NCBI GenBank assembly: GCA_018266295.1
Contig: JAFEAQ010000011.1
Location: 496,001 to 560,000 of the forward strand
Direction: 5' to 3'
DNA length: 64,000 nucleotides
From: Bdellovibrionales bacterium
GTDB taxonomy: Bacteria; Bdellovibrionota; Bdellovibrionia; Bdellovibrionales; Bdellovibrionaceae
The notes under the pieces are model-generated. The model was not told the DNA's origin and did not search any database. It saw nothing but the letters and a program-made list of their open reading frames with translations. The first letter of the stretch is position 1, and each line of letters begins with the position of its first letter. Positions 331 to 29,715 of the stretch are shown here, one piece after another. A program made the position numbers and the translations under genes.

Positions 331-1560
331 CTACTTAACTATAAACTTAATAAATTTTTTCTTACCGGCTTTGAGGACGAAGCTTTCACCGGTCTTCAAA
401 TCCCAGCGAGCCTTCGGGTCAGCCAGCTTCACGCCATCACGCTGAACGCCGCCGCCGGCAATCAATCTGCCGGCTTCGCCGTTACTTGCGGCCATCCCCG
501 CTTTCACCATGAGAGCGGCAATGCCCACTTGGTTCTCGGCAAAGACTTCAAATTCTGGAACTTCATCCGGCAAGCCTTTATCTACGAAAATACGATTGAA
601 TTCGTCTTCAGCTTGCTGAGCCGCCGCTTCCGAGTGGAAACGTTTGATCAAAAATTTCGCTAAAGCGACTTTCACTTCGCGCGGATGCTTGCGTTTTTCC
701 GCCACATCGGTTTTCAACTGCGACAACGCGGGCCCTGTGATATCAGTCAAAAGCTGGTACCAACGGTACATCAAATCATCGGAAATTCTCATTGTCTTCC
801 CGAACATGTCTTTCGGGGTGTCGATAACAGAAATATAATTATCTAAGCTCTTCGACATTTTGTTCACGCCGTCGATCCCCTCAAGGATCGGCATCGTGAG
901 CACACACTGAGGCTCTTGGCCGTAAGCACTTTGTAAATCACGGCCCACTAAAAGGTTGAACTTCTGATCCGTACCACCAAGCTCCACATCAGACTTCAAA
1001 GCCACAGAGTCGTAGCCCTGAGTCAGTGGGTACAAGAATTCATGCAAAGCAATCGGACTACCAGATTTATAGCGATTCGTGAAATCATCACGTTCCAGCA
1101 TACGAGCGACGGTGTACTTTGAAGCCAAACGAATGACATCGGCAAAATTCAATTTGCCACACCAGTGAGAGTTAAAAACAATTTCCGTTTTTTCTGGATC
1201 AAGAATCTTGAAAATTTGTTTCTTGTACGTAGCTGCGTTGATTTCAATATCTTCCGGAGTCAACATCGGGCGAGTGGTGTTCTTGCCGGAGGGATCCCCG
1301 ATCAATGCCGTGAAATCCCCGATTAGGAACTGCACGTGATGGCCCAAATCCTGGAAGGTTTTCAGTTTATTAATCACGACTGTGTGACCAATGTGAATGT
1401 CCGGACGCGTAGGATCCGCCCCGAGCTTGATTCTCAGAGGCTGATTCTTTTCTTTACTGCGTTTGAGCTTTTTCAGCATGTCTTCATCACTGATGAATTC
1501 AGCCACGCCGAATTTGATTCTCTCAAGCTGTTCGCGAGGATCCATGAAAGACATGCTCAT
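331..1560 (-). CDS. tyrS: Tyrosyl-tRNA synthetase
   Basis: Class Ic aminoacyl-tRNA synthetase that charges tRNA-Tyr in the cytoplasm. The 409-residue product has the HIGH signature at 56-59, KMSKS at 234-238, and a C-terminal S4-like RNA-binding segment ending in [11 protein letters not shown]. The length and the form of both signatures fit the TyrRS branch that carries a C-terminal S4 domain. The ATG overlaps the rny stop by one base (TAATG), so translation is probably coupled to rny. A second in-frame ATG lies three codons in (MSMSF) and could equally be the start. Nothing unusual in the catalytic motifs. Confidence 0.96.
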
Positions 1561-3125
1561 TACCTCGCGTGTTCAACAGTGCGGCTCTCACGAACCACGG
1601 TGACTTTAACCTGGCCAGCTTGCGGCATTTCACGCTCGATCTTACGAGCGATATCACGCGCAAGCATGGTTGATTGATCGTCAGTCACTTTAGCACTTTC
1701 CACCATCACACGCACTTCACGGCCGGCTTGCAATGCAAATGTTTTCAAGACGCCGTCGAAGCTATTGCCGATACTTTCAAGATCTTCCAAACGATGGATG
1801 TAAGCATCCATGTGCGGACGACGCGCGCCCGGACGAGATGCTGACAAGATATTTGCGGCATGGATAATCCACGCCAAAGCAGACGTTGGTTTCTCATCAT
1901 CTTGGTGAGCACGGATCGCATGGCAGATCTCTTCAGATTCACCGTATTTTTTCGCCCACTCTGCACCAACCAATGCATAACTGCCTTCAGCTGTGTGCTC
2001 AATCGCACGGCCGATTTCATGCAAGATCCCCGCACGGCGAGCTTGCTTCACATTCATGCCCATTTCGCCGGCGAGCAAGCCAGCGATGTAAGCCACTTCC
2101 AAAGAATGATTCAAGACGTTTTGAGCATGGGTTGAACGGTACTTGAGGCTACCGATCAATTTTACGAGCTCTGGGTGGATGTTCGGAATTCCGAGCTCCA
2201 CAACCACGCGCTCGCCTTCTTCTTTGATGGATTTAGTAATTTCGTTCTTTTGTTTTTCAACGACCTCTTCGATACGCGCTGGATGAACGCGGCCGTCTTC
2301 CATCAACTTTTCAATCGTACGTTTCGCCAGTTCACGGCGAACCGGATCGAAACCAGAGATAACAACCGCTTCCGGAGTATCATCGACGATCAAATCCACA
2401 CCGCACATGGCTTCCAAAGTACGGATGTTCCGGCCTTCACGACCGATGATTTTACCTTTCATTTCATCGCTTGGCAGAGCCAAAACGCTGACAGTTCTTT
2501 CAGACGTGTACTCAGAAGCAAAGCGAGATAATGCCGTGCTGATAATGCGACGAGCTTTTTTGTCGGCTTCTTTTTGTGCTTCTTCTTCGATGGCAGAGAT
2601 TTTCTTAGCTGCTTCGACTTTTGCTTCGTCCTCAAGTGCTGTGATCAACTGACGACGAGCTTCTTCTGCCGTCATCGCTGCAATGGATTCTAGCTTCTGC
2701 TTCAATTCACCGATGTGAGTCTCTGCTTTTTTCTCGAGGTCTTTAATGCGTGTTTCAGTGATGGCGACTTTTTCTTCGCGGTCTTTCAACTGACCGACAA
2801 AACGGTCATTCTCTTCCAGCTTCACCTTGAACTGATCGTCGACTTCTTTAAGACGACGCTCCAGCTGAGATTCTTTATTCTTCATCTGAGCTTTTTGCTT
2901 ATGAATATCGGCCTCAACATTCTTACGCGCGCGGGCTTCAAAATCCTTCGCTTTTGTTTCAGAATCTTTCTTCACCTTTGCAGCTTCAGACTTTGCTTTG
3001 TTAATAATGCGGTCTGCTTCAGCACGGGCTGATTTCTTTTGGGACTCGTCTTGAATTCTTTTGATAACGAAGACAAGAACGCCCCCGATAACCAATCCAA
3101 GAATCGATGCGATAACAACTTCCAT
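1560..3125 (-). CDS. rny: RNase Y homologue with altered HD active site
   Basis: The 521-residue protein has the full RNase Y architecture: an N-terminal membrane helix (about 3-22), a long charged coiled coil (about 25-200), a KH domain with [11 protein letters not shown], an HD-type domain and the conserved C-terminal block ending [12 protein letters not shown]. RNase Y is a membrane-bound endoribonuclease that starts mRNA decay in many bacteria. The expected metal-site residues are changed here: HD is H369-E370, the GSH histidine is Y383, the HH pair is H407-Q408, and the ADA aspartate is N425. The histidine of NHSLEVA remains. The scaffold is well conserved, so the gene is clearly kept, but nuclease activity is doubtful. 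Neighbours are fau (14 bases upstream) and tyrS (overlapping). Confidence 0.9.
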
Positions 3126-3139
3126 AACCGGACTCCTAC

Positions 3140-3709
3140 TTACTTACACTGAATAATCTCGTTTTCGGTGATGACGAAGTCGACATTGATGTCGTGCTCT
3201 TCCACCGGAAAGTCCTCAGCAAGGACTTGGCAGCCAAAACAGATGCCAACCTTAGGACCTTTGTAATCAGCCAGGGCTTTGTCATAAAACCCGCGGCCTT
3301 TACCTAAACGATTGCCTTTTTTATTAAATCCTAAACCCGGAACTAAAACTCCGGTGAGCTCTTCGAGATCCAACTTACGGGAATCCTCGGAAGGCTCCAT
3401 CACCCCGAACGGACCTTTGATGAAATTCTGCGAGATATAAAAAGTCAGGTGGTCGGCTTCCATACGCGGAAACGCCCATTCGATTTTTTCGGAATGATGA
3501 AACACCGGACTCAGATCAGGTTCCTGAGGAAGGGCATGATAACCTGCCCAAATACCCTGTTTCTGGCCGATAAATTCTGTGAGATTTTCGCAGAGTTGTT
3601 GCTGGATTTGCACGGACGAATGCGGGGACTCTTTTTGCAAAAGAGCCTTCAGGTGGTCACGCCATTGGCGTTTACCCCACGCTTGCATTTTATTTAGACG
3701 CAAACTCAT
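3140..3709 (-). CDS. fau: 5-formyltetrahydrofolate cyclo-ligase
   Basis: Predicted to convert 5-formyl-THF to 5,10-methenyl-THF with ATP, recycling folate. The 189-residue protein carries the family glycine-rich block (PGLGFNKKGNRLGKGRGFYD, about 125-145) and the C-terminal D-x-x-V-D-FVITE block. An N-terminal basic segment precedes the fold as usual. It lies between zapA and rny on the same strand, 30 bases after the zapA stop, and appears to be part of one operon. The ATG is preceded by GAGGCTAGG. The zapA-fau pairing is common in proteobacteria, where 6S RNA sometimes sits between them; here the gap is too short for that. Confidence 0.93.
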   Translation of the reverse strand: MSLRLNKMQAWGKRQWRDHLKALLQKESPHSSVQIQQQLCENLTEFIGQKQGIWAGYHALPQEPDLSPVFHHSEKIEWAFPRMEADHLTFYISQNFIKGPFGVMEPSEDSRKLDLEELTGVLVPGLGFNKKGNRLGKGRGFYDKALADYKGPKVGICFGCQVLAEDFPVEEHDINVDFVITENEIIQCK

Positions 3710-3739: not shown

Positions 3740-4042
3740 TTAAACTGTTCTGTTGAGCTTGGAATTTTCTAGATCGATAGAGAGTTTAAGTGCTTTTTCT
3801 TCTATTTTCTCAAGCTCGCGGTGAGCTTTTCTTTTGAGAAGAATGAGTTCCTCTGCCACGTTAAGGGCTGTTAGAACTGCTGCATTTTGAAAAGAACCAT
3901 ACTTCGTCACGGACAAAGCTTGATCCATTTTATTGTTCACAAATTCGACGAGTTCCTGAACAGTCGCATCATCATGGGAGGTTTTTAACTTATATGGGAC
4001 TCCCGCAATAAGGAAGTCGTAGGTTTTTTTCTCAGATGCCAC
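3740..4042 (-). CDS. zapA: Cell division protein ZapA
   Basis: Small cytosolic protein (100 residues) that bundles FtsZ filaments at the division site. The N-terminal ZapA domain (YDFLIAGVPYKLKTS, residues 8-22, then the VQELVEFVNNKM helix) is followed by the long C-terminal coiled coil (from about 50). The start is GTG at 4042, the first codon of the domain-matching frame, with AGGTCCGA just upstream. It heads the operon zapA-fau-rny-tyrS-ferredoxin. The leader contains a GGGCC/GGCCC hairpin (4054-4069) between the promoter and the start codon. Confidence 0.88.
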   Translation of the reverse strand: MASEKKTYDFLIAGVPYKLKTSHDDATVQELVEFVNNKMDQALSVTKYGSFQNAAVLTALNVAEELILLKRKAHRELEKIEEKALKLSIDLENSKLNRTV

Positions 4043-4850: not shown

Positions 4851-6599
4851 TTAATATTTACTGAGGAAAGCAATCACGTCCAAATCTTGCCCACTCGCCA
4901 CCCCGGCTCCGCCAGGCATCGGTCCCGTCAATTGATCCAAAGTGTATCCGGTAAATGCATCGGTGTTGCGATCATGCTGGAAGCGCAGCCATTTTTCCCG
5001 ATCATACCAAGCCTTCTTCGTAGAATTGTCGCGACAAGTTGCGAGCTCACTGCCTTGAGCGCCCCAACGAAGCTCCGGGCAGTGATAAGGATCGAAACTC
5101 AAATCATAGATTCTAGCGCGCGCTTTTTCCAGGTTGATGGAAACACTTTGACCTGCACTATTTTTGTAAGTGATCTGGCATGCACTCGAGGTTTGCTTGT
5201 AAGCATTCAGCATATCTGCCGCGATATTTTTGCCGTCGTAGCCAATCTTGCCGTCGCGAGCTTTGTAGTGACGAATCGCCTCTTGCACATAAGTGCGAAG
5301 TTCTAGGAAGGCCACTTTCAAACGCGCATCACGCGCTGGAGTTGCATAAGTCTCCCACTCGCCGTCAGCCCCATAAATATTGTTCGGAAGTGTGTAGGGA
5401 TGCTCCTTCTGATTCACGCCCGCTGAGACCGCCACTTGGACAGCATCGGCACGTTCTTGCATCCCATTACACAACTCGGTTGTCATGACTTTGACATCAT
5501 CAATAGGATTTTCTACGAGGGGCCCGTCGGCCAAACGGTTACGAACCCAATCATAGTAATCCATTTGCTGCCCTTGGAATACAAAGCCCGCTTGGCGCCA
5601 ATCTTGGCTCGCGTTTGTTCCGAAGTATTGCTCCGTACTGTACAGAGGCAACTCGCGGTCTTTCGCTCCGACGATTTTTCCGCCGACATAACCCGCACTT
5701 GCATTCCACACCGCCCCTGTCAAGCGCAGGGGACGCCAGTTTTTAAAGCCAGCACCTTGTCCTGGATAAGAGCGCATGAAGCGCGAGTTGTACAAACCAG
5801 ATGTCAGACTGTTATCGGGATGCGCATCAATATAATAAATGCGCCCGTCTTTTGTTACTTTATAAACTGTCACCACGTGGCCGTTCGGATCATAGATCAC
5901 TGTGCCCGGGCGAATGGCATCACGACTAATGCGCACAGGATAGAAATCTGAGAAGAGTCTATCCGCATCCATTCCCGAATAACTCACTCGAAAATTCGCC
6001 GACGAAACTTCGTCCGGCAAAGTATGATTGAAAATCTCTATGGCGTTCGTCAATCGTGGGCTGCCCGAGCGAGTTTTCTCGGTGAGCACCGCATAGCGCG
6101 CGCGAACGGTATTGCCATACGGAGAGTAGCGAATATCTTTGACCACATCTCCCGGCCCTTGAATCGGACTCACACTGCTGACGAAGCTAAATGGCAGCTG
6201 ATTTTTCCAGGCATAGTAGGCGCGCAAGAAGTACGGAAAATCCGCACAGTCTGAATAGAACTTCAGATAGGCGACATCCGACTGCGCATAGGGATTTACT
6301 TGAGGATTGCGGAAGCAACTTGAAACCGTCGCACAGAGACCGCGAGAAACGCCATCTCCCACCATAGAGATATAGCGGATGTAGTTTTGCTCCTCCGTGA
6401 CTCCCCACTCGGTCTTGCTGATGATCCAAGGCTCTGACACCGCGAGAGTATCGGCATCAAAAGGGATGACGACGTCACGTGAATATCCCTCTTGCGCGTA
6501 TCCATCAAAAGCAATCAACAAAGTTAGAACGATGAATATGAAAAAGAAGCTAAGATGGCGGTCTTTACCGCCGCGAATTGCGGTGCCTCGATTTGTCAC
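4851..6599 (-). CDS. Large secreted protein, possible NlpC/P60-like cysteine hydrolase
   Basis: About 582 residues from a GTG at 6599 that has GGAGGGCTCA immediately upstream. An open frame extends to an ATG at 6671 but lacks a ribosome site. Basic residues followed by FFFIFIVLTLLIAFDGYAQ form a signal peptide. In the mature part DCADFPYFLRAYYAW, then DPNGHVVTVYKV, then YYIDAHPDNS have the order Cys, His, acidic/His seen in NlpC/P60-type papain-like folds, where the GHV strand carries the catalytic His. That assignment is my inference from three short motifs; the C-terminal half (about 350-582) is unrecognised. A role on cell wall or secreted substrates would fit, but is not shown by the sequence. 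Confidence 0.65.
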   Translation of the reverse strand: MTNRGTAIRGGKDRHLSFFFIFIVLTLLIAFDGYAQEGYSRDVVIPFDADTLAVSEPWIISKTEWGVTEEQNYIRYISMVGDGVSRGLCATVSSCFRNPQVNPYAQSDVAYLKFYSDCADFPYFLRAYYAWKNQLPFSFVSSVSPIQGPGDVVKDIRYSPYGNTVRARYAVLTEKTRSGSPRLTNAIEIFNHTLPDEVSSANFRVSYSGMDADRLFSDFYPVRISRDAIRPGTVIYDPNGHVVTVYKVTKDGRIYYIDAHPDNSLTSGLYNSRFMRSYPGQGAGFKNWRPLRLTGAVWNASAGYVGGKIVGAKDRELPLYSTEQYFGTNASQDWRQAGFVFQGQQMDYYDWVRNRLADGPLVENPIDDVKVMTTELCNGMQERADAVQVAVSAGVNQKEHPYTLPNNIYGADGEWETYATPARDARLKVAFLELRTYVQEAIRHYKARDGKIGYDGKNIAADMLNAYKQTSSACQITYKNSAGQSVSINLEKARARIYDLSFDPYHCPELRWGAQGSELATCRDNSTKKAWYDREKWLRFQHDRNTDAFTGYTLDQLTGPMPGGAGVASGQDLDVIAFLSKY

Positions 6600-6780
6600 T
6601 GAGCCCTCCAGAGCTATCAATATTTTTGACAGGTCAGAAAGACTTACAGGATGTCTTTTACCAGGGTTCACTATAATGCGGAAGAAACTGTCACACTTAT
6701 TGCTTTATATCCCGACAGTTGAGTTTTCAAAGTGATCTTTGCTCTGTGGCGTTCGACCCCCCTTGGACCCACGGAGCACC

Positions 6781-27485: not shown

Positions 27486-27854
27486 ATGAAGAATAACGCA
27501 ACATATTACAAATCCCTCGTCGTCTTCGGTGCCGCGATTTTCATCATCATGATGATCCTTTCTCCGAAGGGCTACACTGAATCTGCGAGCAAAATCAAAA
27601 CCAGTGAAGACAAAGTTCGCCAAGACATGATCGTGATCTCTCGGCAGCTCGGAGTGACCTGTTCGGAGTGCCACAACGTTCAGAATTTCACATCGGATGA
27701 AAAGAAAAGTTTTAAAGTCGCTAAAGACCATATGCGCATCGTAGAAACTCTGCGCACCAGCGGCTTTGATGGCAAAAAAGGCCCCGAAGCCAGCTGCTAC
27801 ATGTGCCACCAGGGCGAGCTTCGCCCCGACTACAAAGAAACTGTCGAAAAATAA
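27486..27854 (+). CDS. Small membrane-anchored di-heme c-type cytochrome
   Basis: About 122 residues from ATG at 27486 ([12 protein letters not shown]); the longer frame back to 27309 runs antisense into the glycyl-tRNA synthetase gene and lacks a ribosome site. An uncleaved membrane anchor or signal (about 9-25) precedes two heme-attachment motifs, CSECH and CYMCH, in a short domain like the c-type domains annotated as photosynthetic reaction-centre cytochrome subunit in non-photosynthetic bacteria. Likely a periplasmic electron carrier. Its partner is not evident; nitrite reductase is about 6 kb away. Confidence 0.8.
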
Positions 27855-28829
27855 TTAATAGCTGGTCGGTTTGACCACGAATTCATAGGTTGTGGTCTCA
27901 GACTTTTTTAGGCCCGAGGACTCAGCCCACGCAGTGATGCGGTAACGCCCCGGCTTCATGGCTTTGTCTAAAATCACTTCCTTGGCATTCTTCGAAGTGA
28001 ATTTATCAACCGGAATCCATTCATCACCAAAAAAGTATCGATACTCGAGAGTTCCGACGGTATCCGCCACCGCCGAAGCATCTTTCCAGCGAAGGGTCGG
28101 CACCCCTTTGGTTTGCGGCAAGCGCTGGGTTTTTAATTTTGGATCAGCAACGTCCGGTACTTCTTCAAACGCAAAGACCGGTTTTTCCAGTTGCACGGTT
28201 TCGATCACAACTTTTCCCGGCAATGTCACAGGGTCAGACTCGATGCCGTCGGCACCGATCGAGGTCAGCGTCGTTGTATAAACGCCGGCGGCAAGCTGAG
28301 TTTTGTACGAAAACCCCTTCACGATTTCATCACGCACAACTTTTTCATTGTGGTCGATGACCTTCACGCGGAACTGCGTCGCCCCTGCGGCCTCTCCCCA
28401 GTGCCATACCACTTCCGAGGTGAGCGTCTTTGGATCGATCACACCTTTGGTCGCCACGGGCTTTTCCGGGAGCTTCACAGGTTTTGGTTGCACTGTAAAC
28501 TCAGTCAATGCGGACCAGTCACCGAAGACCTTGCGTGCATCCGCCACACGGCTGCGAACTTTGTACTTTCCGACTTTGAATTTAAATTTGAAAGTATGAT
28601 TCGGAGATTTAAAGACAGCGAGGGTTTTCCCGTCGAAGTTCTGAAATTCGGTTTCATAAACTTTGGCCCCAGAGATTTCTTCCCACTCCAGCTCCACGGG
28701 AACTTTCTCGCTCTCTACAGCAAGATGAACGCCTTTCAGCACCGGGCCCGGTGCCGCCGGTGGGTCTTCAGCAAGGGCGGCTGAAGACATCAATAGCATA
28801 AAAAGGATGCTATTTCTTTGCAGGCTCAT
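27855..28829 (-). CDS. Secreted protein with fibronectin-III-like repeats
   Basis: 324 residues with signal peptide MSLQRNSILFMLLMSSAALAE. The mature chain has three beta-rich repeats with the pattern of Fn3 or Ig-like modules: VELEWEEISGAKVYETEF, EVVWHWGEAAGATQFRVKV and PTLRWKDASAVADTVGTLEYRYF. Each has the W...A...Y/F spacing of Fn3 strands. Such modules bind protein or glycan; no enzyme domain is visible. It is the last gene of a three-gene operon of secreted proteins and overlaps its upstream neighbour by 20 bases. Confidence 0.7.
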   Translation of the reverse strand: MSLQRNSILFMLLMSSAALAEDPPAAPGPVLKGVHLAVESEKVPVELEWEEISGAKVYETEFQNFDGKTLAVFKSPNHTFKFKFKVGKYKVRSRVADARKVFGDWSALTEFTVQPKPVKLPEKPVATKGVIDPKTLTSEVVWHWGEAAGATQFRVKVIDHNEKVVRDEIVKGFSYKTQLAAGVYTTTLTSIGADGIESDPVTLPGKVVIETVQLEKPVFAFEEVPDVADPKLKTQRLPQTKGVPTLRWKDASAVADTVGTLEYRYFFGDEWIPVDKFTSKNAKEVILDKAMKPGRYRITAWAESSGLKKSETTTYEFVVKPTSY

Positions 28830-29715
28830 CGATATCTTCTTTGCCCGGCGTCCGCAGGGATTGCTTTGCTAAACGCAGAGCAAGGTTCATGGCATTGGTG
28901 TGATCAATCGTGATCTTACTTGAGCTCAGTGCGTATTCCATCGCCGCCTGAAAGTTCTCAGGAGCTTTCGGCCCGTAGGCAAAAACCTTTGGCACCAAAT
29001 TAAGTGAATCAATCACCGAAAGTCCCATGCGTTTATCGGCACGTAAAAAAGTATAAAATTTTTCAAAAGAATTAAACAGCCCACCCGGAAACTTCGGAGT
29101 ATGATCAACGATCTTCAGCGCCAGCTCTGCACACTGACGCAGTGGCAATGCTGCTTTATCGTTGTTTGTGCAGAATTTAACTAGCTTAATGAAGTCTTCC
29201 CGCACGTCCTGGGCTTTGCCTTCGTAATCGCGCGACAGTTGAAAACTCACTTTGTAAGCTGTGGCGAAATCAAAATCGAGAATGCTTTCAAGATACATCT
29301 TGGCGAAGACTTCGTTAAAGTTTTTCAGGCGCTCATCATCCAGGCCCGAGAAATCCAACCCGACTTCGACCGCTTTTGTCAGAGCCACGCCGGTTTTTTT
29401 CATCATCTCGTAAGCCTTAAAGAACCTTGCCGAAGAACCGTTGCAGCCTTTGCTGATTCTTAGAGCCAAGCGCGCGGATTTTTCTTCACCGAGAGAAAGA
29501 TCTTCGTCTTTCATCAAGGCTTCATAAGCACTTTGAAATTCTTTGAAGCTTTCACAAGGTTTACTTTTCTCGGCTTCTTTAGCGGCGGCCTGAGCCTGCG
29601 CTATCGGACCGTCTGGATAGGTGTTTTCTCGCTCTTGCGGAGTTTTCACCTCGGCATGTGTACGCAGCAGAAAGAGCAGGCTGATAAGATAGAGGGCCGT
29701 TCTAAGGGACTTCAT
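28810..29715 (-). CDS. Secreted helical-repeat protein, unknown
   Basis: 301 residues with signal peptide (SLRTALYLISLLFLLRTHAE). The mature protein is largely helical with evenly spaced short helices (FKAYEMMKKTGVALTKAVEVG, AYKVSFQLSRDYEGKAQ, MNLALRLAKQSL) that could be an alpha-solenoid. Four cysteines. The ATG overlaps the stop of the gene upstream by one base (TAATG). No family recognised. It forms an operon with genes on either side. Confidence 0.65.
   Translation of the reverse strand: MKSLRTALYLISLLFLLRTHAEVKTPQERENTYPDGPIAQAQAAAKEAEKSKPCESFKEFQSAYEALMKDEDLSLGEEKSARLALRISKGCNGSSARFFKAYEMMKKTGVALTKAVEVGLDFSGLDDERLKNFNEVFAKMYLESILDFDFATAYKVSFQLSRDYEGKAQDVREDFIKLVKFCTNNDKAALPLRQCAELALKIVDHTPKFPGGLFNSFEKFYTFLRADKRMGLSVIDSLNLVPKVFAYGPKAPENFQAAMEYALSSSKITIDHTNAMNLALRLAKQSLRTPGKEDIDEPAKK

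Follow-up and report, generated by a model that had tools for sequence, protein, structure and literature searches.

In many bacteria, RNase Y initiates the breakdown of mRNA. The window analysed here (the whole stretch of DNA, 64,000 nucleotides in length) carries near its start a gene for a homologue of this enzyme in which the catalytic HD domain is degenerate. The question raised by this locus is what such a protein would be kept for, and which protein would do the cutting. The homologue in the window is called copy A below, and copy B is a second RNase Y gene of the same genome (G000), located on contig C14. The features of the locus are as follows.

331 to 1560, minus strand: presumed tyrS, downstream neighbour of copy A, a marker of the ancestral rny locus which is also found in single-copy relatives
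1560 to 3125, minus strand: copy A, catalytically degenerate RNase Y homologue of 521 aa (ORF, TIGR03319, Pfam)
1563 to 1805, minus strand: C-terminal region of copy A, residues 441-521, conserved (column conservation)
1806 to 2135, minus strand: HD domain of copy A, residues 331-440, fold predicted to be kept, metal site degenerate (Pfam HD 337-429; AlphaFold2 model; Foldseek match 2pq7)
1851 to 1853, minus strand: changed ligand D425 to N (alignment; D absent from all 117 A copies)
1902 to 1904, minus strand: changed ligand H408 to Q (alignment)
1977 to 1979, minus strand: changed ligand H383 to Y (alignment)
2016 to 2018, minus strand: changed ligand D370 to E (alignment)
2286 to 2510, minus strand: KH domain of copy A, residues 206-280, intact (Pfam KH_1 217-272; conservation)
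2427 to 2444, minus strand: KH GxxG loop of copy A, G228-R-E-G-R-N233 (both glycines present in all 117 A copies)
2511 to 3050, minus strand: coiled-coil region of copy A, residues 26-205 (Pfam RNase_Y_N 4-206; long helices in the AlphaFold2 model)
3051 to 3125, minus strand: N-terminal membrane-helix region of copy A, residues 1-25 (sequence; helix 2-148 in the AlphaFold2 model)
3140 to 3709, minus strand: presumed 5-formyltetrahydrofolate cyclo-ligase-like gene, upstream neighbour of copy A, matched in single-copy loci
3740 to 4042, minus strand: presumed ZapA-like gene, upstream neighbour of copy A, matched in single-copy loci

The names of the three neighbours are assumed by us from their sequences. 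The frame of copy A is real on the minus strand, the plus-strand frame of 1560-3125 being interrupted by stops, and its stop codon overlaps the start codon of tyrS by one base, at 1560. The NCBIfam model TIGR03319 (RNase_Y) covered residues 5-521 with 622.2 bits at a cut-off of 454.35, and the Pfam domains RNase_Y_N, KH_1 and HD were all identified. Pfam and the AlphaFold2 model gave the order of parts of the RNase Y family, i.e. membrane helix, coiled coil, KH, HD and C-terminal region. A sequence search of PDB revealed no relative at 1e-3. A weak profile match to the MPN262 family of mycoplasmas (NCBIfam NF045745) reached 24.2 bits, far under the cut-off of 800 for that model.

Seven HD ligand positions (340, 369, 370, 383, 407, 408 and 425) were assigned in copy A by alignment to relatives; the family model served as reference, together with those relatives that have a single copy. 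The HD phosphodiesterase motif is given as H...HD...H...HH...D in PMC8177086, and the HD pair of copy A lies within one residue number of H368/D369 of the Bacillus subtilis enzyme as numbered in PMC10303841. The complete motif is absent from copy A, which reads HHEYHQN, while the 18 single-copy genomes of the order read HHDHHHD. Four of the seven metal ligands are thus altered (D370E, H383Y, H408Q and D425N), all at the residues where a previous sequence-only reading had placed them, and its description of a conserved RNase Y scaffold around a degenerate HD site agrees with TIGR03319, Pfam and the alignment. That reading had also considered that the ligands might be shifted to neighbouring residues; displaced ligands could be ruled out, because no adjacent H or D replaces the changed positions in the alignments with relatives. 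Since none of the 117 orthologous copies in the order has D425, the loss is not due to chance or sequencing error. We infer that copy A cannot cut RNA. Its GxxG loop, the RNA-contact element of KH domains, is present as GREG.

Copy B came to light when the own genome was searched with RNase_Y_N; it lies at about 27575-29155 on the plus strand of contig C14 and encodes 526 aa. Its HD ligands are complete (HHDHHHD), and its KH loop reads DAAGEN, compared with GREGRN in copy A, so that the GxxG loop is missing (DAAG). We presume that copy B can cut RNA. Its score with TIGR03319 was 421.6 bits, just under the cut-off of 454.35. A third RNase_Y_N match, on contig C8, was dropped, as its best ORF is what we take to be a FliD-like flagellar cap protein. 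In addition, one RNase E/G protein was identified in the own genome, with RNase G models as the best match, while the RNase J family (TIGR00649) gave no match there, and RNase J was rejected as the replacement nuclease on this ground. The sequence-only reading had supposed that RNA decay here is carried out by another nuclease and had suggested a search for a second rny, rne or rnj; other nucleases do exist, and what it missed is the most likely one, a second RNase Y whose HD site is intact and whose KH loop is ruined. RNase E/G occurs in 134 of the 140 genomes of the order, in split and single-copy genomes alike, so it could be ruled out as the reason for the split and does not account for the HD loss of copy A. 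As a separate observation, the RNase E/G gene of one genome (G092, contig C1) consists of two halves, 533360-534055 and 875973-876638, about 340 kb apart and on opposite strands, each half-match containing a stop; the gene may have been broken by an inversion.

The survey for RNase Y covered 290 genomes of the phylum. For the own order (Bdellovibrionales, 140 genomes), B-type queries were used as well, and the copies were aligned. A readable RNase Y copy was obtained in 137 of the 140, and three genomes (G312, G318 and G320) gave no match. An A-type copy was present in 117 of the 137 and a B-type copy in 108; both were present in 106, A without a readable B in 11, and B alone in two (G300 and G311). 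The other 18 carried a single ordinary copy with both sites intact (in G333 a contig end truncates this copy within the KH loop), and an ordinary copy alongside A or B was seen in none of the 137. In the named collection, relatives of B were found at 10 loci, all labelled Bdellovibrio, Bdellovibrionaceae, Bdellovibrionales or Bdellovibrionia. Among the 11 genomes with A and no readable B, G270 and G199 have B fragments at the end of a contig, G278, G295, G328 and G331 have short matches to the B profile, and G296 has a doubtful one. The profile search found no B in G244, G290, G327 and G330, the last three being drafts of 78-94% completeness. G244 (99% complete, 10 contigs) is the clearest exception to the A/B pair: its A (L101) is altered at D425N only, and two single-protein searches and one profile search found no B. 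In this genome A might have retained some activity, or RNase E/G might be what carries out RNA decay.

The decay of the two copies is complementary. D425 is absent from all 117 A copies, with N in 60, Y in 29, F in 14, H in 5, V in 4, S in 3, C in 1 and I in 1, and both GxxG glycines are retained in every one of them. All seven HD ligands are retained in 108 of 108 B copies, and both GxxG glycines are left in only 6 of the 108 (the KH loop of the G323 copy lies past a contig end). Five of these six come from family f9, and the survival of the glycines in them indicates that the KH loss in B was gradual. Reciprocal loss of KH and HD in co-occurring paralogues, the pattern expected of the proposed two-subunit RNase Y, was thus found in the 106 genomes with both. 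In A the degree of HD damage varied: only one ligand was altered in 38 of 117 copies and five or more in 53, and 31 different ligand strings occurred among the first 82 A copies tabulated. Among the copies scanned, Pfam KH_1 was matched by 43 of 43 A (of 117) versus 0 of 38 B (of 108), and Pfam HD by 41 of 43 A versus 38 of 38 B. In one genome (G258, contig C14) the B gene (L214) is split into two frames, with ORFs of 362 and 213 aa, and the HD part still has all ligands.

Column conservation was calculated from 82 A rows, 76 B rows and 42 rows of a single-copy set S, which wrongly includes one B row (L064) because its loop retains both glycines. Rows L142 and L143 were removed as duplicates, and the frame-broken B of G258 was left out of the B profile. 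In the alignment used to read the ligands, L138 (G029), whose frame is broken, was entered with its two ORF pieces joined. The mean majority-residue fraction of the KH domain was 0.856 in A versus 0.594 in B, and the conservation of the KH loop was 0.967 versus 0.429. S332, H340, D370, K373, H383, H408, P413 and D425 were invariant or almost invariant in S and B but not in A, and the same held for G224, G228, E230, G231, R232, N233, R235 and E238 in S and A but not in B.

Both proteins remain under selection. Pairwise pN/pS in genus g3 was 0.034 (KH) and 0.100 (HD) for A, and 0.087 (KH) and 0.049 (HD) for B; in genus g2 it was 0.057 and 0.210 for A, and 0.294 and 0.169 for B, all of these being rough figures with synonymous sites near saturation. 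In both genera the KH value was lower in A and the HD value lower in B, mirroring the column conservation. Purifying selection therefore acts on the damaged domains as well, and with values of at most 0.21 in the KH, HD and C-terminal regions of A in the two genera, copy A could be ruled out as a pseudogene. In the AlphaFold2 models of A and B (pLDDT 82.6 and 87.1) both KH-like and HD-like folds are kept, and Foldseek matched the models to the HD protein 2pq7 and to KH proteins with weak E-values. The coiled coil and the C-terminal region persist in A and B alike.

The trees were built on selections of the available rows (127, 79 and 134 rows). In the mixture-model tree of 79 rows, A formed a single clade with an SH-aLRT of 97, placed among the order's single-copy proteins; the B copies likewise grouped in a single clade (100), on a long branch. 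Constraining A, B and the single copies of the class together was not rejected (p-AU 0.583) and even gave a better score. In the earlier tree of 127 rows, made without a mixture model and with long branches flagged, A took two changes because the divergent protein of G013 was placed inside it. In the tree of 134 rows without the HD columns, the intact/lost label took 2 changes and not 1. These trees are compatible with one duplication. On the 134-row tree at least 29 changes were counted at position 408 and at least 15 at position 425 among D, N and other residues, a count of at least 25 at 425 being given as well. The HD pocket of A appears to have decayed repeatedly after a first step, and D425N looks like this step, because all 11 A copies of f9 are altered at D425N alone.

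The neighbours of A, tyrS together with the cyclo-ligase gene or zapA, are also found beside single copies of the class (L008, L011, L021 and L032), and none of the three was found at the B loci examined. A thus sits at the ancestral locus, and B is the moved copy. The two genes are unlinked and share no common operon, and no conserved operon partner for B was observed across the order. A gene whose GGQ motif suggests an ArfB-like ribosome-rescue factor was seen close to B at 28 of 60 B loci (L035-L040, L042, L045-L048 and L145-L161), mostly upstream and on the other strand, and is not seen in the 4.6-kb B locus of the own genome. In L045 and L217, sequences weakly related (44 and 52 bits) to the 606-aa ORF at 4851-6671 of the window were seen close to B.

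A similar arrangement was revealed in family f21, a separate lineage of the phylum, whose genomes G020 and G028 were the only two of their order in the set analysed. Both have an HD-damaged copy at the tyrS/zapA locus (HHDSHEN and HHDHHSN) and an HD-intact copy elsewhere which retains the GxxG loop (rows L009, L010, L225 and L226), so the KH loop is kept in both copies. The HD-damaged f21 copies fell outside A in both the 127-row and the 79-row trees. It seems that a split like that of A and B began here independently, and that f21 shows the first half of it. G013 (family f19, 78% complete) has a single RNase Y (L139) with HD ligands HHDHHEN and an intact GREGRN loop, and no second copy was found in this incomplete genome.

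The probable reading is subfunctionalisation into a two-subunit RNase Y, in which A supplies RNA binding and the scaffold and B the active site. A single RNase Y gene would have been duplicated in the ancestor of most Bdellovibrionales, and the working parts would then have been divided between the two copies. A would have stayed at the ancestral locus, keeping KH, coiled coil and C-terminal region and losing the HD metal site with D425 first, while B would have moved elsewhere, keeping its HD site perfectly as its GxxG loop decayed. The two proteins may then physically associate, assembling at the membrane as a mixed oligomer through the coiled coil and the C-terminal region. The KH domains of A, which presumably bind RNA, would hold it beside the HD sites of B; A would probably also organise partners, and B would cut. 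B. subtilis RNase Y is described in PMC10303841 as forming dimeric or larger assemblies, and the dimer modelled in PMC9775385 is held by the coiled coil together with the final strand of the C-terminal region. The fuller proposal, an obligate two-subunit enzyme in Bdellovibrionales which arose by one duplication and reciprocal decay, together with an independent HD-dead copy in f21, is put at about an even chance. Against the two-subunit reading speak the genomes with A and no B (G244, and the less complete G290, G327 and G330), the six B copies in which both glycines survive, the unlinked genes, the 2 changes on the tree without HD columns, and the inhibition of active B. subtilis RNase Y by its inactive form.

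A and B might instead act apart, B as the sole nuclease of RNase Y type with no need of KH, and A as a membrane RNA-binding scaffold for e.g. RNase E/G. This is closest to the idea of the sequence-only reading, and the strong constraint on the KH, coiled coil and C-terminal regions of A, the lack of linkage and the presence of RNase E/G in the own genome and most of the order are in its favour. It is regarded as rather unlikely, since single-copy relatives with an intact RNase Y have RNase E/G too, and since the loss of KH in B alongside that of HD in A is most simply one job divided. A degradosome-scaffold role for A is possible and compatible with the split. In place of the suggestion that the membrane scaffold has some other job, a divided RNase Y is the better interpretation: with a second copy showing the opposite damage, A resembles one half of a shared enzyme more than a scaffold left over on its own.

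It is improbable that A regulates B as an RNA-binding, cutting-dead partner or decoy which poisons mixed oligomers or competes for RNA. The precedent is the H368A/D369A form of B. subtilis RNase Y, which is dominant negative, with mixed oligomers discussed by the authors (PMC10303841); such inhibition of the active form by the inactive one is the opposite of the cooperation proposed here. A pure inhibitor, however, leaves unexplained why B lost its KH loop in the same lineages. The least probable reading is that A has remained catalytically active as an HD enzyme, its metal site or chemistry being altered. The 38 copies with one altered ligand would allow it, as would the Bdellovibrio HD-GYP protein Bd1817, in which the last Asp is Asn and di-iron is still bound, with no activity on c-di-GMP (PMC8177086). 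Against this, four ligands are altered in the window copy and five or more in 53 of 117, the at least 29 steps at 408 and at least 25 at 425 look like decay and not like one new site, and single mutations of the HD pair almost abolish the activity of the B. subtilis enzyme (PMC10303841).

How the KH domain, the HD site and the oligomer state of RNase Y cooperate is in our judgement unsettled, and a natural separation of two functions onto two chains in more than 100 genomes makes this question directly testable. Automatic annotation can also name the wrong gene, as in the own genome, where the RNase Y model accepts the cutting-dead copy and narrowly misses the likely active one, and a Bdellovibrio mutant lacking just the gene annotated as rny might have lost the RNA-binding half. 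Searches by title or start of abstract found no paper about a divided RNase Y or about RNase Y in Bdellovibrio, which is no proof of absence from print.

The nearest functional parallel is the RNase J1/J2 pair of Firmicutes, paralogous RNases in which one partner, the weak or chiefly structural J2, works in complex with J1. The RNase J fold is a metallo-beta-lactamase, unrelated to RNase Y; we know of no reciprocal loss of an RNA-binding module in that pair. The closest relative in build is the RNase Y (rny) of B. subtilis and its relatives (TIGR03319), which has the same whole architecture from the membrane helix to the C-terminal region. In that enzyme the KH and HD functions lie in one polypeptide, whereas here they are divided between paralogues.
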